Source: Cryobacterium sp. N22 (GTDB taxonomy: Bacteria > Actinomycetota > Actinomycetes > Actinomycetales > Microbacteriaceae). Taken from it: a stretch of DNA of 64,000 nucleotides. The first letter of the stretch is position 1, and each line of letters opens with the position of its first letter. The translations under genes were made by a program, and so were the position numbers. The stretch covers positions 1-64,000 of the forward strand of contig NZ_PJJP01000022.1 of NCBI RefSeq assembly GCF_002929555.1, written 5' to 3'. The notes below the pieces were generated by a model. It worked only from the letters and a program-made list of their open reading frames with translations, was not told the DNA's origin and ran no database searches. Shown here in pieces: positions 5,651 to 51,345 of the stretch.

Positions 5651-5676
5651 AGGTCTCGACAAGCTCGACCAACGAC
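5651..5676. repeat. Dispersed LVEP-type repeat
   Basis: TCTCGACAAGCTCGACCAAC, a copy of a short dispersed element seen at least six times in the window. Confidence 0.7.
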
Positions 5677-33221: not shown

Positions 33222-33827
33222 CTAGGGCTGGTGAACTTTTGCGGATCTGTGGAACAGCGATACGACGTCGTTCACGGCTGGAACGAGCTGGCGGGCGGAT
33301 TCGGCGTAGACCTCATCGCTTCGCCGATACGGGTCAACGACGTCATCATCGTCGGGATGCTCAGGCGGGCCCACGGCTCCGCGCTGTGAGGCCGCGAACC
33401 CGACCAGCGTGGAGAATCGACCTGCGACATCATCCAATGGGAGCGCTGCGGCCTCGTCGAGGTCTTCGTCGGTGACGTCACCGACAAGCCGGGCGAATTC
33501 CCGGATGGTGAACGTGTAGCGGATGGCCTTCGGGAACAGCTCCACGATTGCCCGTCGGTGTTCTCGGGACATGGCAAATACCAGGTTCGCCTCGCTGAGC
33601 TGTTCCACGGTGAGTACCCGCGCAACGTGCCCAGAGGGGTCCCCACCGAAGTGCCGGGACAGATCGGCGGCCTCAGGGGGCATCGCCTGTCCGGTTAGGC
33701 CGATGGTACCGGCGCTGCCAAGGGTGACCTCCGGCCAGTACGCCAAACCGACGCGGAGCAGTTGTTCCGCCAACGGCGACCGGCAGATGTTGCCCGAGCA
33801 CACCGTGAGGATGGTGAAGCCCGCCAC
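33222..33827 (-). CDS. Low-molecular-weight protein tyrosine phosphatase
   Basis: 201 aa. The P-loop VCSGNICRSP (Cys10, Arg16) opens the protein, and the acid motif is DPYRRSDEVY (Asp-Pro) near residue 170. It should dephosphorylate the tyrosine kinase encoded just upstream, resetting polymer length control. Longer than usual (about 150 aa) owing to an insertion before the DPY motif. GTG start overlapping the kinase stop as TAGTG. Confidence 0.92.
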   Translation of the reverse strand: MAGFTILTVCSGNICRSPLAEQLLRVGLAYWPEVTLGSAGTIGLTGQAMPPEAADLSRHFGGDPSGHVARVLTVEQLSEANLVFAMSREHRRAIVELFPKAIRYTFTIREFARLVGDVTDEDLDEAAALPLDDVAGRFSTLVGFAASQRGAVGPPEHPDDDDVVDPYRRSDEVYAESARQLVPAVNDVVSLFHRSAKVHQP

Positions 33828-35272
33828 TAGGCGGTTCTCCGGCGCGGCTTGCTGAAGCTGTGCCGTCTGGGCGGAGCAGCCACGTCGGCATTGCTGTTTT
33901 CTTCCTCAAGGGCGGAGCCATAGCTGTACTGGCCGTAGCCGTACGAGTCCGGCCCCTTCGTCGGAAGCATCGTGATGACCATGCCCACCAACCGGCTGCC
34001 TGCGCGTTCGAGGGCCTTCACCGCGGCGGACAGCTCGTTGCGCTTCGTGCGGCCCGAGGCCACAACCATGATGGCACCGCCGCAGAGTTTGCTCAGTACC
34101 GCAGCATCAGTGACGAGGAGCAACGGCGGCGCATCGATGAGGACGATGTCGAACTCTTCGGTGAGCGCGGCGAGCATATGCGCCATCGCACTCGAGCCCA
34201 GCAGCTCGCTGGGGTTCGGGGGTACGCGTCCGCTGGGGAGGACATACAGTTTGTTCTTTCCCCACTTCTGCAGGACGTCGGAAAGTTCTGCGCGACCGAT
34301 CAGTACGTCGGTGAGACCGACGCCACCCTCGATGCCCATGTAGTCGGCGACGCGAGGCAGTCGCAAGTCACCGTCGATCAAGGCAACGCGGGCGCCGGTC
34401 TCGGCCATGGCGATGGCGAGGTTTGAGGTCGTCGTGCTCTTGCCCTCACCCGGAATCGAGCTGGTGACGACGAAGCTACGGGGGCCGCCTTCGATATTGA
34501 CGAACTGCAGGTTCGTGCGCAGGCTGCGGAAAGACTCTGCGCGAGGGTTCTTGGGGTCGGAGTGAACGACCAGCGGCCGGATACGCGCGTCGGGGTCGTT
34601 CGTGATGCCACCGAGCATCGGGGCATCCGTGACGAGGTCGATGTCATGCAAGCTGTGAATGCGAGTGTCAAGAACACTGCGCAGCACGGCAAGACCGATG
34701 CCCAGCGCCAGACCGATAAGGAGGCCGAGCGCGATGTTGAGCGGGATGTTGGGGCTGGCGGGTGCTTCTGGCACGAGGGCCGGCTGAATCGTCGCGATCT
34801 TCACCGGGCTCAAGGCTTCGCCGTCGGGCTTCTCCAGCTGGTCGACCACGATGCTACTGAAGTTCTGGCCCACAGCATTGGCTATCTTTGCGGCGAGCAC
34901 CGGGTCGTCGTTCGTGACGGCGACGTCGATAAGGACAGTGTTAAGAGGAGAGGAGGACTCAACCATTTCCGCGAGGTCAGCAGCGGTGAGATCGAGCTTA
35001 AGGTCGGTGATCACCTTGTCCAGCACTATGGCGCTATTCACCACATCGACGTAGGACGTGACCGCCTGGCGGGCGAAGCTGGTGCCGGCAACGAGCTCGC
35101 CGCTACCAGCGTCTGCGGAGGACTTCACGGAGACGTAGAGCTGGGTGCTGGCGACGTAGGTGGGCGTCGTGGCGATAGAGGCCGTGGCAGCAGTTGCCAC
35201 CCCGAACAGGGTCAAAGCCAGAATGAGGATCCAACTTTTGTGGAAGATCCTGAGATAGTCCTTTAGTTCCAC
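33827..35272 (-). CDS. Wzz chain-length regulator fused to a BY-type tyrosine kinase
   Basis: 481 aa. The Wzz domain (about 1-200) has two membrane helices (SWILILALTLFGVATAATA and IPLNIALGLLIGLALGIGLAV, split) around an outside part. The kinase domain (about 230-450) has Walker A SSIPGEGKSTTT, Walker A' VALIDGDLR and Walker B VLIDAPP. A Tyr cluster (YGYGQYSYG) near the C-terminus is the expected autophosphorylation site. It controls chain length and drives the Wzx/Wzy pathway. GTG start 6 nt after GAAGGAA; first gene of the ten-gene operon running to 24432. Confidence 0.94.
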   Translation of the reverse strand: MELKDYLRIFHKSWILILALTLFGVATAATASIATTPTYVASTQLYVSVKSSADAGSGELVAGTSFARQAVTSYVDVVNSAIVLDKVITDLKLDLTAADLAEMVESSSPLNTVLIDVAVTNDDPVLAAKIANAVGQNFSSIVVDQLEKPDGEALSPVKIATIQPALVPEAPASPNIPLNIALGLLIGLALGIGLAVLRSVLDTRIHSLHDIDLVTDAPMLGGITNDPDARIRPLVVHSDPKNPRAESFRSLRTNLQFVNIEGGPRSFVVTSSIPGEGKSTTTSNLAIAMAETGARVALIDGDLRLPRVADYMGIEGGVGLTDVLIGRAELSDVLQKWGKNKLYVLPSGRVPPNPSELLGSSAMAHMLAALTEEFDIVLIDAPPLLLVTDAAVLSKLCGGAIMVVASGRTKRNELSAAVKALERAGSRLVGMVITMLPTKGPDSYGYGQYSYGSALEEENSNADVAAPPRRHSFSKPRRRTA

Positions 35273-35443: not shown

Positions 35444-37846
35444 TTAGTCGGGGTTGCGCACGGTTCCGTCGGGGCCGACGACCAGGATGCGGGGGGTACC
35501 GGACTCGATCACGATGGTGGCCACATCCGCCCGGCCGGCCGGTAGCACGCGCACGGTGGCGCGGCCATGCTCGATGGTTTGAAGCACGTCGGCGACGGTG
35601 CAGGCGAGGGTCTCGAGCTGCTCGGGCGGGGTGTCGGCGCTGTCGTCGAGCACGGTGACCTCCACGCCGCGCTGCCGGGCCGCCTGCACGGCGAGGATGA
35701 CGGGGGGCACGAACAGGACGCGGCCGCGGATGGCGTCGCGGAGGCTGGCCTCGACGAGCAGGCACGCGGCACGCTCCTCGGCGGTGAGGGCGTGCGGCTC
35801 GGCCAGCCGCAGCAGGGTGGGCCGGGCGAGAGCGTTGACCCGCCGCAGCTGGGCCTTGCGCTCACGGATCGCCGCCACGGTGGTGGCGTCCTGGCGTGCG
35901 CGGGCGAGGTCGTTCTGGGTGAGCACCTGCAGGTCGCGTTCGGACCGGCCGAGTCCCACCACGAAGAGGCTGCCGGCGAGCAGGGTGCCGGCATGTCGGC
36001 TGACCAGGTCCACACCGACCATGGCCGATTGGCCGGTCTCGACCGCCCAACTCACCGCGAGGAGGGCAAGCACCGCGTAGCCCATCCAGGCCGACCGGAT
36101 CTGGCCGCGGGCGGCAAGCACCACCAGGATCAGGGTGATCGCGCCGAGGTGCCAGTGCGCGAACGGGGCCTCGTCGTGGGCGGGCAGATAGGCGAACATC
36201 AGCACGGCACCCAACCCGCTGAGGCCCAGGGCCACGGCCACTTGCGTGCGGGGGAAGGGGCGGGTCAGCGGGCGCATCAGGGTGATGCCGGAGAGCACGA
36301 TTGCGAGGTAGGCGCCGACGAGCAGGGCCAGCGGCCGGCCGGGGACGATGTTGATGAGGGCGAGGAGGCCGTGCACCAGAACGAAGAGGGCCAGGATGAG
36401 GCGGGCCATGGGGGTGGTCAGGTCGAGAGACCGGGAGAGGAAGGCGGGGGTGGGGTCGGCGGGCGTGGGCGGCGGGGTGAGGTCTGGAGATCGGCCGGCG
36501 GGGGTCTCGACAGGCTCGACCAACGGTGGTTGCGTGTCGCGGATTGGCGTGCGGTCGGGGGCCCAGGCCACGACCACGTCGGTGCCCCGGCCGGGGGTGG
36601 AGCGCACGTGGGCGGCGCCGTCGGGCAGCCGGGTCATGCGGCCCAGGATGGACTCGGCGATGCCCAGCCGCTCCGGCGGCACCAGGGCCGGGTCGAAGCC
36701 GACGCCGTCGTCGCTGACGGTCACCTGGAATCCGTCGGTGGTGGAGAGCACCGTGACGGTGCGGTGCACCGGCCGGGCGGGGTCGTGCCCCGCGGCCGAG
36801 TTGACCGAGTTGCGCAGGGCTTCGCCGACGGCGCCGAAGATGGCTGTCACGGCCGCAGAGGGCACGGTGCGCTCGATGCCCGCTTCCTGGCCGGCGCGGG
36901 CCGGGTTGTCGAGGCGCACCGCGGCATCCGGGGCGATCTGATGCGCCAGCGTGGCGATGCGGCGGGCGGCGTCGGAGACCAGCACCACCGGCTGCGGCGG
37001 CGGGGAGCGCAGCGCGTCGAGCTGGGTGAGGGTCTTGGACGCGTGGCCGGAGACCACGTGCGGCGGGGTGCGGCCGAGGCCGGCCATCAACAGGGTGGAG
37101 ATGACGCTGTCGTGCACCAGCGCATCGATGCTCAGCCGCTCCTGCCGGCGGGCCACCCGCGCGGCCCGGTGTGCTTCGGCCTGCCGGGTGAGCAGGGTGG
37201 CCTCGTCGACCCGGGCCGCGGCGCGCCGAGCGGCGAGGGTGAACGCCACGAACACGCTCACCAGCAGCAGCGAGTAGAGGCCGTCGGCCAGGCCGATGAG
37301 GGCCGGGTCGGTGTCGGCGGAGGTCTTGAACCGCACGAGACCACTGAGCAGGCAGGCGAGCACCGTGAACGTCCAGGCCAGGCGGCGGCGGGCGAAGACG
37401 GCGACGGCCACGCAGGGCACCCCGGTGAAGGTGATCGCCCAGGGGATGTCGGCGCCGGCGGGCAGCGGGCCGTCGCGCACGACGAGCCAGAAGCCGACGA
37501 TGACGAGGAAGCTCAGCGCCTCGGCCGTTACAAGGCCCCGCAGGATGCGCGCCGACCCCCACCGGGCACTGAGGCCCAGGGCGATCGGCAGGCCGAACGA
37601 CGCCACCCAGGCGGTCGCAGCCAACCCGGGGGCCGGCTGCCAGGCCTGCGCGAAGTAGGACGGCAGCGAAAGCAGGCCGAAGATGCCGGCCGCGGCGGCC
37701 ACGGCGATGCAGAGCAGCCGGGTGAGGTTGGCGGTGGCGGTGTGGGCCGGGGGCTCGGCGACCGTGGGAATCGGCACGGTCGGGTCTGGGGCCGGCTGTG
37801 TGCCTGTGCCGGCGCGAATGCCGGTGCCGCCCGTCAGCGCGGTCAT
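35444..37846 (-). CDS. Membrane histidine kinase fused to a degenerate kinase half
   Basis: 800 aa with two similar halves. Half 1: about five membrane segments, then DALVHDSVISTLLMAG with the likely phospho-acceptor His245, an N box EALRNSVNSAA and DDGVGFDPALV with a final GRGTDVVVAW. This is a NarX/DesK-like kinase core. Half 2 (from about 470): five more membrane segments, a coiled region (LARARQDATTVAAIRERKAQLRR, about 620-645) and a domain with strands and helices like half 1 but no His, N or G boxes. A dispersed LVEP-type repeat encodes PLVEPVET exactly at the joint. The ATG overlaps the response regulator stop (ATGA), so the two are partners. Confidence 0.82.
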   Translation of the reverse strand: MTALTGGTGIRAGTGTQPAPDPTVPIPTVAEPPAHTATANLTRLLCIAVAAAAGIFGLLSLPSYFAQAWQPAPGLAATAWVASFGLPIALGLSARWGSARILRGLVTAEALSFLVIVGFWLVVRDGPLPAGADIPWAITFTGVPCVAVAVFARRRLAWTFTVLACLLSGLVRFKTSADTDPALIGLADGLYSLLLVSVFVAFTLAARRAAARVDEATLLTRQAEAHRAARVARRQERLSIDALVHDSVISTLLMAGLGRTPPHVVSGHASKTLTQLDALRSPPPQPVVLVSDAARRIATLAHQIAPDAAVRLDNPARAGQEAGIERTVPSAAVTAIFGAVGEALRNSVNSAAGHDPARPVHRTVTVLSTTDGFQVTVSDDGVGFDPALVPPERLGIAESILGRMTRLPDGAAHVRSTPGRGTDVVVAWAPDRTPIRDTQPPLVEPVETPAGRSPDLTPPPTPADPTPAFLSRSLDLTTPMARLILALFVLVHGLLALINIVPGRPLALLVGAYLAIVLSGITLMRPLTRPFPRTQVAVALGLSGLGAVLMFAYLPAHDEAPFAHWHLGAITLILVVLAARGQIRSAWMGYAVLALLAVSWAVETGQSAMVGVDLVSRHAGTLLAGSLFVVGLGRSERDLQVLTQNDLARARQDATTVAAIRERKAQLRRVNALARPTLLRLAEPHALTAEERAACLLVEASLRDAIRGRVLFVPPVILAVQAARQRGVEVTVLDDSADTPPEQLETLACTVADVLQTIEHGRATVRVLPAGRADVATIVIESGTPRILVVGPDGTVRNPD
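36501..36526. repeat. Dispersed LVEP-type repeat inside the kinase gene
   Basis: GGTCTCGACAGGCTCGACCAACG; read in the kinase frame it gives LVEPVET at about residues 441-449, between the two halves of the protein. Confidence 0.8.
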
Positions 37847-38493
37847 GAGCGGCCGGGCAGCGGCAGGATGCCGTCCTCCAGCGCGCGCTTGTACAGGTCG
37901 ATTTTGGTGTTCGCCGGCCGACCGACCCGTTCGTACTTGGACCGCACGCGGCGGATGTAGTCGACCACGGTGAGCTCGGACAGTCCGGTGTGCGAGGCCA
38001 CCAGCGGCGCCTTGGCCCCGGCGGCGTAGAGCGAGAGCACCTCGCGCTCGCGGGGGCTCAGGCCGGCGTCGGAGAGGTCGGGGTCGCCATCCAGGGCCGC
38101 AGCCCACTCGGTGGACGCGACGGTGTCGCCAGCCGCCGCCCGGGTGACGGCGTCGAGCAGCACGTCGGTGGGTTCGGACTTGCGCACCACGCCGAGCACC
38201 CCGCTGCGGGCGGCGGCGCGCATAAGACCCGCGTCGTCGCCGCCGGTGAACGCGAGCACGGATGCGCCGGTGGCCCGCAGCCTGTCGACGTTGCCGGTGA
38301 CGGTGGAGCCGTCGGAGAGGCGCAGGTCGAGGATGACCAGGTCGACCGGGCTCTCCCCCACCTCGGCCAGCAGTTCGGTGACCGTGGCGACGGTGGCCAC
38401 CACTTCGATGTCGGGCAGGGTGGCGAACAGGCCCGCGAAGCCGCGCACCACGATCTCGTGGTCGTCAATCAGCGCAACGCGGAACTTGTGCAT
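37843..38493 (-). CDS. NarL/FixJ-family response regulator
   Basis: 216 aa. Receiver domain 1-120 with acidic pair IDDHE and phospho-acceptor Asp in VILDLRLSDG; conserved Lys in VVRKSEP. C-terminal LuxR-type HTH in LSPREREVLSLYAAGAKAPL and a recognition-helix region TVVDYIRRVRSKYERVG. ATG 6 nt after AGGAGAGG; the longer open frame upstream overlaps the tdk end and is not used. It is coupled to the kinase fusion gene and is the only response regulator near the two kinase modules. Confidence 0.92.
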   Translation of the reverse strand: MHKFRVALIDDHEIVVRGFAGLFATLPDIEVVATVATVTELLAEVGESPVDLVILDLRLSDGSTVTGNVDRLRATGASVLAFTGGDDAGLMRAAARSGVLGVVRKSEPTDVLLDAVTRAAAGDTVASTEWAAALDGDPDLSDAGLSPREREVLSLYAAGAKAPLVASHTGLSELTVVDYIRRVRSKYERVGRPANTKIDLYKRALEDGILPLPGRS

Positions 38494-38563
38494 GTCTGCC
38501 TCTCCTGCCGTGCCGAATCGGGTGCCCTGATAAATGACGGCTTTTGCCGCCGGGGATGCTTCC

Positions 38564-39286
38564 CTAGGGTATTGATGGGGAACTTGCCGGGGGGCAAGCT
38601 GGGGCGCTCTCGATGGGCGGATTTGCTTCGTGCGGATCCACATCGATTGAGCGCCCTCGCTCCGCCGGCTCCCGGCGCCGGTTGTTGAGCACACCGTGGC
38701 TCTCCTCGAGGTAGCAGGAGCCGCAGAGCGACTCGTAGGTGACCTCGACGCCGTCGATGGCCACCTGGTCGCCGTCGAAGACGAACGCGCCGTCGACCTT
38801 GCGCCCGTTGAAGACGGCCTTGCGGCCGCACCGGCAGATGGTCTTGAGCTCTTCGAGGCTGTGCGACACCTCGAGCAGCCGGCGGCTGCCCGGGAAGGCC
38901 ACGGTCTGGAAGTCGGTGCGGATGCCGTAAGCGAGCACTGGGATGTTCTCGATGATCGCGATACGCAGCAGGTCGTCGACCTGGGTCTCGGTGAGGAACT
39001 GCGCCTCGTCGACGAGCAGGGCGCTCACGTCGAGCCCGGTGCCGGCCAGGGTGTCGGCGCGGTGCTGCTGGAACAGGGCGTAGGCATCCGTGTCCGGCGT
39101 GAGCAGGAAGTCGACGCCGCGGGTGACGCCCAGGCGGGAGAGGATGCCACGGTCACCCTTGGTATCCACCGACGGCTTGGCCAGCAGCACCTGGTGGCCG
39201 CGCTCCTCATAGTTGTAGGCGGCCTGGAGCATCGAGGTGCTCTTGCCGCTGTTCATTGCTCCGTATCGGAAATACAGTTTCGCCAT
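38564..39286 (-). CDS. tdk: Thymidine kinase
   Basis: 240 aa. Phosphorylates thymidine with ATP (salvage). P-loop YGAMNSGKST, Walker B-like LLVDEAQF, the lasso with zinc ligands CRCGRK and CGSCY, and the substrate loop around VEVTYESLC are present. The C-terminal 30 residues, rich in Pro, Ser and Arg, go beyond the usual length. A hairpin (CTTGCC/GGCAAG, near 38590) lies within the last codons and may end transcription. Unrelated in function to the signalling genes on both sides. Confidence 0.95.
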   Translation of the reverse strand: MAKLYFRYGAMNSGKSTSMLQAAYNYEERGHQVLLAKPSVDTKGDRGILSRLGVTRGVDFLLTPDTDAYALFQQHRADTLAGTGLDVSALLVDEAQFLTETQVDDLLRIAIIENIPVLAYGIRTDFQTVAFPGSRRLLEVSHSLEELKTICRCGRKAVFNGRKVDGAFVFDGDQVAIDGVEVTYESLCGSCYLEESHGVLNNRRREPAERGRSIDVDPHEANPPIESAPACPPASSPSIP

Positions 39287-39320
39287 AACCGCCGGTACCG
39301 TCCTCTTAAACGTTGAGGTT

Positions 39321-40679
39321 TCAGCGTACTTGGCGGGGCGGTTGCTTCGCGCGCAACCCGGCGGGGGTGGCCGGGGTGGCCGGGGCTTCCCGGGGTGGGC
39401 CGGCCTCGTGCGGGTCGCGGGCGCCGTCGAACTCGATGGTGAGCGAGGGGCGCCGCACGGTGACCCGCACGTTGGCGAAGACCACCCGGATGACGCCGAG
39501 GTAGGGGCGCAGCAGGGCGCGCACCTTGCGCGGCGGCAGGTCGAGGGCGGCCTGGATGGTGATGGTGTCGACAGGGGCAGATGCCGTCGCCGGGGTTGCC
39601 GGGTTGCGCTTGGTGGGCTTGGCCAGGGTCAGCAGGGGTTGAGTGAGGGTGGCCGGGGCGGGCCGGGCCGGGGTGGGCATGGTCGATCCGGTGATCTGCA
39701 CGACAAGGCTGTGCGGGTCGAAGCCGGGCGCAGCGCAGAGGGCCCCGATCAGGGCCGCGGTGGCGGCACGCTGCTCGGCGCGGAAGGCCGTGGCGCGGTG
39801 TTCGGGGTCGGCAACGACGAGCAGGCCCGGGGTGCCGCGCTCGGCCAGGGCGCTGCGTTCCCGGGTGGCCACGGAGTCCAGCCAGGTGCGGTCGATCTCG
39901 GCGACCAGGGTGCGGCGCACATCGGCGGCGAGCTGACCGGCTTGGGCGATGTCCAGGGCGGTGACGGTGCCACGGTCCAGGAGCTCGGCGAGGAACGGGA
40001 TGACGCCGGACTTCAGGGCGGAGACCTGCTGCTCCACCACGGCCCGGGCCATCTGGCCGCGGGCTTCTTCGGTGCGGGCGACGATGGCGCGGCGGGCATC
40101 CGTCTGCCAGGCGAGGATGGAGCGCACGATGCGGCGGGAGTACGCGGCACCGGCGGCGGTGGGCGCGAGGATCTGGGTGACCGAAACAATCGCGTACACG
40201 GCCACGGGCACGTGCACTTCATAGGAGCCGGTTTGCGGCACGGTGATCAGGATGGCGACGACGCTGGCGACGGCGCCGGACAGGGCGATCTCGCGCCAGG
40301 GCCGGTAGGGGGCCAGTGCCAGGAGCAGGAAGCCTATGCACACCGGGCCGAAGTCGTCTTGCACGAGCAGGTTGGCGCCCCAGCGACTGAGCTGTTCGCA
40401 GACGTACCCGAGCAGGGCGAAGCCGGCCATGATCAGGTGGATCCGGCGGCCGAACGGCGAGTGCGCCGGTTGGGTGGCGATCACCAGGGTGGCCGCGGCG
40501 GCGGCCATGGCCAGCACGGCGAGGGTGGCCAGCAGGATGTTCTGGATCTGGTCCTGTTGCAGGACCGTGGCGATCACCGAGTAACAGAGCACGATCGAGG
40601 CGATTGCGGGCGACAGCGGCCAGGCGGCGAGGGTGCCCAGCGGGTCGAGGCGCTGCTGGGTGGCGCGCCGGGCGGTCAC
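39321..40679 (-). CDS. Membrane pseudokinase partner (degenerate histidine-kinase-like)
   Basis: 452 aa. About five or six membrane segments (1-190) are followed by a helical region (ARTEEARGQMARAVVEQQ) and a domain with the pattern of a histidine kinase but no phospho-acceptor His, N box or G boxes. Its layout (VSALKSGVIPFLAELLD, then DVRRTLVAEIDRTWLDSV) lines up with the second half of the 800-aa kinase fusion (VNALARPTLLRLAEPH, then EASLRDAIRGRVLFVPPV). The GTG overlaps the upstream kinase stop as GTGA. A Pro/Ala-rich tail ends the protein. Probably a regulatory subunit of the kinase encoded at 40676. Confidence 0.7.
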   Translation of the reverse strand: MTARRATQQRLDPLGTLAAWPLSPAIASIVLCYSVIATVLQQDQIQNILLATLAVLAMAAAAATLVIATQPAHSPFGRRIHLIMAGFALLGYVCEQLSRWGANLLVQDDFGPVCIGFLLLALAPYRPWREIALSGAVASVVAILITVPQTGSYEVHVPVAVYAIVSVTQILAPTAAGAAYSRRIVRSILAWQTDARRAIVARTEEARGQMARAVVEQQVSALKSGVIPFLAELLDRGTVTALDIAQAGQLAADVRRTLVAEIDRTWLDSVATRERSALAERGTPGLLVVADPEHRATAFRAEQRAATAALIGALCAAPGFDPHSLVVQITGSTMPTPARPAPATLTQPLLTLAKPTKRNPATPATASAPVDTITIQAALDLPPRKVRALLRPYLGVIRVVFANVRVTVRRPSLTIEFDGARDPHEAGPPREAPATPATPAGLRAKQPPRQVR

Positions 40680-42052
40680 GGGGTGGTCCCATCGGTGGTG
40701 GCGGCTGGGGTGGGCGCATCCGCGAGCTGCCCTGCTGCGGACGAGTTGCCCCGGTGTGCCGGGGCAACTGGTCCGGACGGGGGCAACTCGGCGGAGAGGG
40801 CAGCCACGGCCGGGGCGGTCTCGGCGGCGGCTTCGGCGGCCGCGGCGATGGTGGATGGCACGATGGGCGGTGCGGGCAGGGTGAGCAGCACCGAGGTGCC
40901 GGCGCCGGGACGGGACCAGATCACCACGGAGCCGCCGAGCCGTTCGATGCGTTTGCGCACCGACTGGCGCAGCCCGAGCCGGTCGCTGCCGGTCTCTGAC
41001 TCCATGAAGCCGCGGCCGGCGTCGAGCACCATCACCGAGACGTTTTGCCCGTCGGCGTCGATGACCACCTCGGCGGTGACGATGCCGGCGTGCAGCAGCA
41101 CGTTGACCAGACATTGCTGCACGGCCAGGCCCAGCTCCCGGTCGCTCTGCGGATCCAGGCGCGCCAGGGCCTCCTTGTCGCCGGTGATGTCCACGACGAG
41201 GCCGCGGTCACGCATGCGGTCAATGGCGCGGAACACGGCGCTGGACAGCCATCCGTCGTTGCCCGCCGCGGTGGCGGTGCGTTCGTCGACGTGGGTGAGC
41301 CAGTCGCGCTCGGCGAGGGTTTGCAGGGTCTCGCGGAGGCCGGCCTCGAGGCCGCGGCTGAGCGGGCCGGGTTTGGCGCGCGCCACCGACACCAGCTGGT
41401 TGAGGGTCGTGTCGTGCATCAGGGCGATGGCGCGCACGTCGAAGTCGTGGCGCAGGATGCGGGACTCGTCGTCTTGCACGGCGCGGTGGATGGCGGGCTG
41501 GGCGGCGCGCCCGGTGCGGCGGGCGAGGCCGTCGAGCAGCATCACGCCGACGAGGAACAGGTAGATGACGATGGTGAACACGTCGGGGCGGTCGGGCACG
41601 GGGGTCTGCGAGATGGCGAGGGTGGCGGCGGCCTCGGCGAGGAGGAAGCCGAGGGTGCTCCACAGCACGCCGACGAGCGCGCCGGTGCCGGCGCCGCCGA
41701 CCATGATCAGGGCCATCTTGGGCAGGGAGATCAGGAACATGTCCGAGGACGGGAAGACACCGGGCATGCCCAGCACCGCGCTGGTGAACAGGTACGTGCA
41801 CACGGCGCCGATCAGCAGGTAGGCGATGGTGAGCGGCACCGTGCGCCACTTGGCGAGCAGGCCCAGCAGGGCGCCCATGCCCAGGATCGCGGCGACGGTG
41901 ATCTGCAGCCGGTCGGTGACCGGGAACACGCTCAGCGCCAGGACCGAGAACAGGGCACCGGCCAGGCAGACCAGGCCGAACCAGTGCGACGCCCGGGCGA
42001 GGGCGCGGCTGAGCGTGGCCTTGACCAGGTGGTCGGGTAACCCTAGTGACAT
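40676..42052 (-). CDS. Membrane histidine kinase
   Basis: 458 aa. About six N-terminal membrane segments; then FDVRAIALMHDTTLNQLV with probable phospho-acceptor His213; an ATPase domain with LVNVLLHA (N box), DAGRGFM (G1) and GAGTSVLLTLP. No response regulator is adjacent; the partner may be the NarL-type regulator of the neighbouring module. The last 60 residues are Ala/Pro rich, and part of them (GPVAPAHRGNSSAAGQL) is encoded by a copy of palindromic repeat family A. The ATG lies 4 nt after GGAGAGGG. Confidence 0.85.
   Translation of the reverse strand: MSLGLPDHLVKATLSRALARASHWFGLVCLAGALFSVLALSVFPVTDRLQITVAAILGMGALLGLLAKWRTVPLTIAYLLIGAVCTYLFTSAVLGMPGVFPSSDMFLISLPKMALIMVGGAGTGALVGVLWSTLGFLLAEAAATLAISQTPVPDRPDVFTIVIYLFLVGVMLLDGLARRTGRAAQPAIHRAVQDDESRILRHDFDVRAIALMHDTTLNQLVSVARAKPGPLSRGLEAGLRETLQTLAERDWLTHVDERTATAAGNDGWLSSAVFRAIDRMRDRGLVVDITGDKEALARLDPQSDRELGLAVQQCLVNVLLHAGIVTAEVVIDADGQNVSVMVLDAGRGFMESETGSDRLGLRQSVRKRIERLGGSVVIWSRPGAGTSVLLTLPAPPIVPSTIAAAAEAAAETAPAVAALSAELPPSGPVAPAHRGNSSAAGQLADAPTPAATTDGTTP
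40722..40790. repeat. Palindromic repeat family A, copy inside a coding sequence
   Basis: GAGTTGCCCCGGTGTGCCGG and following bases match the reverse complement of the copy at 63180 (CCGGCACACCGGG core, then GTCCGCA and a GGGCA arm). It lies in frame in the 3' part of the histidine kinase gene. Confidence 0.6.
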
Positions 42053-51242: not shown

Positions 51243-51345
51243 GGGACGAACCGCAGGGCGGGTCGCGGGGTCTCGACAGGCTCGACCAACGAGACGGGAC
51301 GAACCGCAGGTCGGGTTGCGGGCTCTCGACAGGCTCGACCGGCGA
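51243..51345. repeat. Tandem duplication of about 50 bp containing LVEP-type elements
   Basis: Two direct copies: GGGACGAACCGCAGG then GTCGCGGGGTCTCGACAGG and CTCGACC. The LVEP-type elements are at 51268-51292 and 51320-51345. The second copy has several point changes. Confidence 0.75.

Follow-up and report, generated by a model that had tools for sequence, protein, structure and literature searches.

Pseudokinases that partner a bacterial sensor kinase have been described case by case (DivL, RocA and FasC), and in each of these the pseudokinase is reported to interact with its kinase (PMC12675982, PMC7028121, PMC9491836, PMC4211667). Here we describe a locus of Cryobacterium sp. N22 in which a kinase and a degenerate, kinase-like partner occur both as two overlapping genes and as one protein. 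The window, by which we mean the whole stretch of DNA analyzed, spans 64,000 nucleotides (contig NZ_PJJP01000022.1, positions 1 to 64,000), and its minus strand encodes, in order, the kinase P3, its separate partner P2, a thymidine kinase (TK), the response regulator RR_B, and a fusion protein whose active-type half (HEAD) is followed by a degenerate half (TAIL). We favor, with a probability of about 0.7, the reading that these genes encode asymmetric sensors, each pairing one active kinase with an obligate pseudokinase, whether fused or split.

By description only, the arrangement is likened to FasBCA of Streptococcus pyogenes, where two kinase-like proteins with six transmembrane segments go with one regulator. 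Two-hybrid work there found a FasB:FasC interaction and no homodimers, and the authors propose that FasC is a pseudokinase bearing the phosphorylated histidine (PMC12675982). In FasBCA, however, the catalytic CA domain and the phosphorylated histidine are proposed to sit on different partners, whereas here HEAD and P3 keep both and the other partner has lost both; a fused form goes unmentioned in the available text of that report (PMC12675982). RocA is likewise a membrane pseudokinase with six putative transmembrane segments that interacts with an active kinase, CovS, and whose own histidine is dispensable, but it is accessory to CovR/S, and the available text describes no overlapping or fused kinase gene (PMC7028121). 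In Caulobacter, the pseudo-histidine kinase DivL steers the active kinase CckA (PMC4211667, PMC9491836); DivL carries PAS sensor domains, dimerizes asymmetrically through its kinase region and binds phosphorylated DivK (PMC4211667), whereas the partner here has a six-transmembrane domain. A ChrS variant of Corynebacterium glutamicum offers an actinobacterial parallel, being a kinase whose CA domain is broken and whose effect depends on the partner kinase HrrS, but it is a laboratory-evolved frameshift rather than a conserved family, and its truncated form is reported without significant heterodimerization (PMC9491836). The best NCBIfam match of P3 is the MacS family sensor kinase (NF047322), at 49 bits against a curated cut-off of 300. 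MSMEG_0244/0246 of Mycobacterium smegmatis, another lead, was dropped as a member of the group; the M. tuberculosis relatives are PrrA and PrrB (PMC7516205).

None of the titles and abstract openings listed by our literature searches describes the partner families. In the genomes surveyed here, a kinase family of Microbacteriaceae, Demequina, Rhodococcus, Nocardia, Gordonia and others seems to include the pseudokinase partner as a fixed component, and the recurrence of this arrangement in relatives suggests a common, undescribed type of two-part sensor. Gene-by-gene annotation would overlook half of each such sensor, while the natural fusions offer ready single-chain constructs for testing the role of the dead half in a kinase dimer.

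Degenerate halves and their probable kinship to histidine kinases

The reading frames of the original prediction are all present on the minus strand: the fusion protein HEAD-TAIL (P0001; 35444..37846, 800 residues), P2 (39321..40679, 452 residues) and P3 (40676..42052, 458 residues), with His245 in the first and His213 in the last at the positions claimed, and with a GTGA overlap joining the P3 stop to the P2 start (40676..40679). HEAD (36551..37738; 395 bits to its family profile) comprises a membrane sensor followed by active-type DHp and CA domains that match HATPase_c and HATPase_c_2. Against a curated Pfam cut-off of 26.4 bits, HATPase_c scores 32.1 in HEAD and 27.4 in P3, and within the 800-residue protein it is confined to the first half; the predicted division into an active and a degenerate part holds. 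The candidate phospho-acceptor His245 (37112..37114) is unchanged in 43 of 43 HEAD rows, as are D246, N346, D379, G381, G383 and F384, giving HEAD the phospho-acceptor histidine, N-box asparagine and G1 box of a histidine kinase throughout.

TAIL (35474..36436; 328 bits) contains a second membrane domain, a pseudo-DHp and a truncated pseudo-CA, and it lacks both the phospho-acceptor histidine and the ATP-binding boxes. At residue 671 (35834..35836), the equivalent of H245 when placed by eye on a shared ER motif, 20 of 42 rows have asparagine, 14 aspartate and 8 another residue, and none has histidine; a histidine anywhere between residues 664 and 682 occurs in 5 of 42. HATPase_c matched none of 22 TAIL or 15 P2 members at E 0.1. 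The 22 TAIL members share no consistent Pfam match, P2 yields nothing but a sub-threshold match to MoaE, and the scans put a name to none of the partner families, including the third one described below. What TAIL does conserve is the motif E699-x3-R703-D704-x2-R707 (35726..35752), each residue of which is invariant in 42 of 42 rows.

That the degenerate halves are related to one another had been proposed from shared motif patterns. The similarity of VNALARPTLLRLAEP to VSALKSGVIPFLAEL is real, but it is weak proof alone: the Smith-Waterman score of TAIL against P2 was equalled in 15 of 300 shuffles, and that of P2 against P3 in 55 of 300. Since pairwise scores could not decide homology, we built family profiles from relatives (36 TAIL, 31 P2, 35 HEAD and 31 P3 rows) and compared them by hhalign, whose probabilities apply to single comparisons; a first build, in which merged envelopes had mixed HEAD and TAIL, was discarded. 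Over 327 columns the full-length TAIL and P2 profiles matched at 98.8% (score 83). TAIL matched HEAD at 98.6-98.9% (77-87) and P3 at 98.2% (66), and HEAD matched P3 at 100% (211). Twelve reversed-sequence controls scored 9.7-20, and 18 comparisons with three families of other hydrophobic open frames, unconfirmed as genes, reached at most 13. On these profiles TAIL is homologous to P2 and to the kinases, and the proposed relatedness of the two tails is upheld.

The fusion model (residues 31-800) was made from 65 rows of checked placement, 20 fused, 23 HEAD-only and 22 TAIL-only, and reached a predicted local distance difference test (pLDDT) of 91.3 and a predicted template modelling score (pTM) of 0.81. 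With TAIL unplaced, at an assumed error of 20 A, the pTM formula gives an estimate of about 0.58, so the relative placement of HEAD and TAIL in the model seems confident. HEAD shows the entire CA topology. TAIL has the order helix-strand-helix-strand-strand with one more short strand at its end, and breaks off near the expected start of the G1 box. The P2 model (20 rows; pLDDT 77.8) combines six membrane helices with a long DHp-like helix pair and the full CA topology; where the ATP lid would be, it has a proline- and alanine-rich stretch of low confidence. The two partners thus differ in extent, since the P2 model covers the whole kinase-domain topology and TAIL stops about where the ATP-lid half would begin. 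Foldseek placed VanS CA domains and the DesK DHp-CA at the top of the PDB matches to the P2 model, and the titles of 35 of the 50 matches listed identify histidine kinases, all at E 0.016 or worse.

Pairing, fusion and duplication of modules

The original prediction took P3/P2 for the split version of the fusion protein. P3/P2 and HEAD-TAIL are instead paralogous systems, not one system in two states: system A has the order P3-P2-RR_A-TK, with its own response regulator RR_A, and system B the order RR_B-HEAD-TAIL. Split orthologues, arranged regulator-HEAD-TAIL, are found at another place in this genome as well as in Microbacteriaceae, Demequina, Rhodococcus, Nocardia and Gordonia.

To follow the pair we scanned genomes with a TAIL+P2 chimera free of HEAD sequence, retaining the best 80 among 207 relatives. 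TAIL was present in 80 of 81 loci, the window included, and in 80 of these 80 a HEAD was either fused to it (22) or directly upstream (58); as the best-scoring loci, these favor close relatives. Both halves were likewise found in all of the best 29 loci fetched with P0001 (own genome apart). At the far end, among the 11 weakest TAIL matches of a search of the class, each of the seven examined had a HEAD-type kinase beside TAIL or in the same open frame. A frame offset compatible with an NTGA overlap is seen in 17 of the 21 split HEAD-TAIL pairs and, counting the window, in 21 of 21 P3-P2 pairs. The co-occurrence of the pair in other actinobacterial genomes, in fused and split form, was therefore as the prediction had anticipated. 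Counting the own genome throughout, P2 was matched in 81 of 150 genomes of the family (E 0.001) and in 3 of 396 of the phylum (1e-5), all three from the same family; either half of P0001 was matched in 120 of the 150 family genomes, and TAIL in 40 of 394 genomes of the class, from several families. The host of RocA-CovS belongs to a different bacterial phylum.

Fused HEAD-TAIL genes make up 21 of the 22 Cryobacterium loci of the chimera scan, among them L124, whose frame is broken late within TAIL. L118 is split, with a GTGA overlap, and falls within the fused clade in a 39-locus tree that omits L121 and L124, and the fused locus of genome G060 groups with the split loci L122, L073, L162 and L084 (support 78). 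Fusion was therefore probably gained or lost more than once. Single-chain forms also occur in a genus of a distant family (seven genomes matched), where both halves share one open frame in all four genomes examined; three of these frames are whole, at 854, 855 and 896 residues from stop to stop, and one is cut by a contig end.

Linkers between the halves run from 12 to 104 residues and are unconserved. The one in the window (36437..36550) has 38 residues, is rich in proline, and contains a copy of a REP-like repeat (36503..36521); the linker of Cryobacterium zongtaii has the same repeat-derived peptide, twice. Insertion of the repeat may have made or lengthened the joint. Genome-wide, the repeat pattern KGTYTCGACARGCTCGACC has 175 exact matches and its reverse none, and other copies in the window lie at 5652-5670, 51269-51287 and 51323-51340, the last with one mismatch.

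A third module emerged from a kinase tree that took in 13 of the 34 HATPase_c places in the genome, relatives, and also HEAD, P3, the C36 copy of HEAD and one further kinase. In this tree the kinase L220 groups with HEAD and P3 in a single clade (supports 81 and 89), and L219 falls just outside (94). The gene downstream of L220, joined by a GTGA overlap, matches P2 (E 4e-8), and the next gene encodes a response regulator; L219 has a regulator, and the 13 kb examined around it hold no match to TAIL or P2. By profile, this third partner matches P2 at 99.3% and TAIL at 97.9%. It was found in 69 of 100 family genomes. In all of 30 loci, the own genome among them, the kinase precedes it and ends in an NTGA. 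Writing KC and PC for the kinase and partner of this pair, similarity scores run KC-P3 268 and KC-HEAD 211 for kinases and PC-P2 108, P2-TAIL 83 and PC-TAIL 60 for partners, while the identities of the regulators are 36% for A-C and 33-35% for A-B. This agreeing order points to whole modules having duplicated together. The genome holds four pairs once the C36 copy of system B (L099) is counted.

Having lost their catalytic motifs, P2 and TAIL could conceivably be functionless duplicates decaying as they hitch-hike in operons. Matches that run over two frames do occur, each in a single species, in P2 (L116), TAIL (L124) and P3 (L120), and these reflect decay or sequencing error. Yet the frames are otherwise open and conserved across families, four pairs persist in one genome, and a non-catalytic motif is invariant, so that we regard decay as very improbable. 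Retention across genera and families, translational coupling and repeated fusion instead suggest that the two halves act as one unit.

Tandem copies of the HEAD-TAIL pair occur within single loci (L139, L141 and L091), and in L121 a second HEAD follows TAIL.

Response regulators of the paralogous systems

Each system appears to have been built with a regulator of its own. All 20 loci selected through P2 have P3 immediately upstream and TK downstream, and in 17 a response regulator stands between P2 and TK; the exceptions are two genomes of the same genus and L082. Systems A and B lie side by side, each with its own regulator, in G063 (L073) and in Leifsonia sp. Root4 (L122). Of the 22 chimera-scan loci with both P2 and TK, however, only L122 and L143 have a regulator between the two genes, and none of 20 Cryobacterium loci, window included, does. 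An RR_A query taken from L122 found a 91% match in G063; its top match in the own genome was at 36%, two other genomes of the genus gave 34-35%, and its three best own-genome matches are the regulators of the other pairs. RR_A is missing in Cryobacterium, and the single local regulator belongs to system B. Because relatives have RR_A, the single regulator is a derived state. The predicted single regulator thus holds for this neighborhood, but not for relatives outside the genus such as L122 and L073, which have two, one per pair. In the window, RR_B (37843..38493) is of the NarL type and its stop overlaps the HEAD start (ATGA); together with the regulator of the third system, it is the nearest candidate target of a P3/P2 pair that has no RR_A.

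It could also be that the pseudokinase chiefly binds the response regulator, as DivL binds DivK (PMC4211667), and serves as a phosphatase platform or phospho-sensor rather than pairing with the kinase. Its gene does travel with regulator and kinase alike. Against this, TAIL is fused to the kinase, while a regulator and HEAD share an open frame in none of 91 pairs lying within 2.5 kb in the chimera-scan loci (an absence qualified by the damaged P3-regulator fusion of G060), and P2 and P3 persist in Cryobacterium with no regulator between P2 and TK. We consider this account improbable.

The G060 gene (L083:11417-13198) belongs to a damaged system A, in which the membrane part of P3 and the start of its DHp run straight into RR_A, the kinase CA domain is missing and P2 was not found at the locus. 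TK adjoins system A in 20 of 20 loci (L063-L082), and in several it abuts or overlaps RR_A.

A proposed asymmetric sensor

We propose that each module brings together a histidine kinase of active type, a membrane pseudokinase that descends from kinase stock and, ancestrally, a NarL-type response regulator. The pseudokinase would be produced by translational coupling at the NTGA overlap or as the second half of a fusion, and would pair with its kinase, most likely through the DHp helices, to form a sensor with one active and one inactive side. Each half has its own membrane domain, so signal input could come from both. Phosphorylation would fall only on the kinase half (His245 or His213) before the phosphate passes to the regulator, and the pseudokinase half would set the balance of kinase and phosphatase activity. 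The natural fusions and the pTM of the fused chain bear on such a heterodimer only indirectly. Homologous tails, a co-occurring pair and the existence of fused and split orthologues favor the earlier suggestion of a two-subunit sensor with a conserved pseudokinase.

Several observations weigh against this proposal. P2 has no direct profile match to the kinases (P2-HEAD 12%, score 18; P2-P3 0.1%, score 4), nor does the third partner family match its own kinase, HEAD or P3, so that kinase ancestry for these two would depend on their connection via TAIL and on the model of P2. The pTM of that model is only 0.48, and its Foldseek E-values are weak (best 0.016, none below 0.001). Histidine kinases and pyruvate dehydrogenase kinases make up the PDB matches listed for the fusion, a result that HEAD could account for by itself, and matching of TAIL by itself is inseparable from HEAD. 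Plain HMMER searches of the PDB sequences with the TAIL and P2 profiles gave chance-level matches and no histidine kinase. A fourth control family turned out to be a histidine kinase of the own genome and was set aside (6 of 24 comparisons); it scored 31 with TAIL, 95 with HEAD, 4 with P2 and 2 with the third partner, matching TAIL at 84% but neither of the other partners. Adjacency and overlap are also common among genes that are merely co-transcribed, and two genomes of the same genus (G078 and G141; L063 and L064) have no HEAD-TAIL beside TK, each having a TAIL match elsewhere.

In a further alternative, TAIL and P2 are accessory membrane proteins akin to LiaF or VraT that regulate a homodimeric kinase through membrane contacts, their cytoplasmic parts being kinase-like in look or mere relics. 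The layout of kinase, membrane protein and regulator resembles that of LiaFSR, and the membrane halves of TAIL and P2 are weakly related (60%). LiaF and RocA have been named as accessory modulators of sensor kinases (PMC12675982). With the membrane part removed, however, TAIL still matched P2 at 84.8% (score 31), HEAD at 79-81% (30) and P3 at 36% (23) against reversed controls of at most 10.4, values that are suggestive but short of proof because a later reversed control, of the third partner against TAIL, itself scored 31. Cytoplasmic TAIL also appears to be under strong selection at its four invariant residues, and none of the 22 TAIL members matched a LiaF-type Pfam model at E 0.1. We therefore think the accessory-protein account unlikely and prefer the asymmetric sensor.

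A bolder proposal, to which we would give somewhat less than even odds, is that these sensors form an ancient actinobacterial class, obligately asymmetric, in which an active kinase always comes with a pseudokinase from the same stock, with at least three co-diverged modules of kinase, pseudokinase and regulator that became single-chain in some lineages and with E-x3-RD-x2-R as a signature in the place of ATP binding. If so, the halves of a single-chain sensor would pair within one molecule, and a histidine kinase would work without a second identical subunit.

Among the matches listed, the closest named relative of the locus is Cryobacterium zongtaii TMN-42, at 95% for P2 and 89% for the fused protein. 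TK, between the two systems (38564..39286), is assigned by NCBIfam NF003300 (257.5 bits). Adjoining the fusion gene at 33222-35272 are two open reading frames that we name by their sequence as putatively low-molecular-weight phosphatase-like and Wzz/tyrosine-kinase-like, which suggests an exopolysaccharide locus next to system B.

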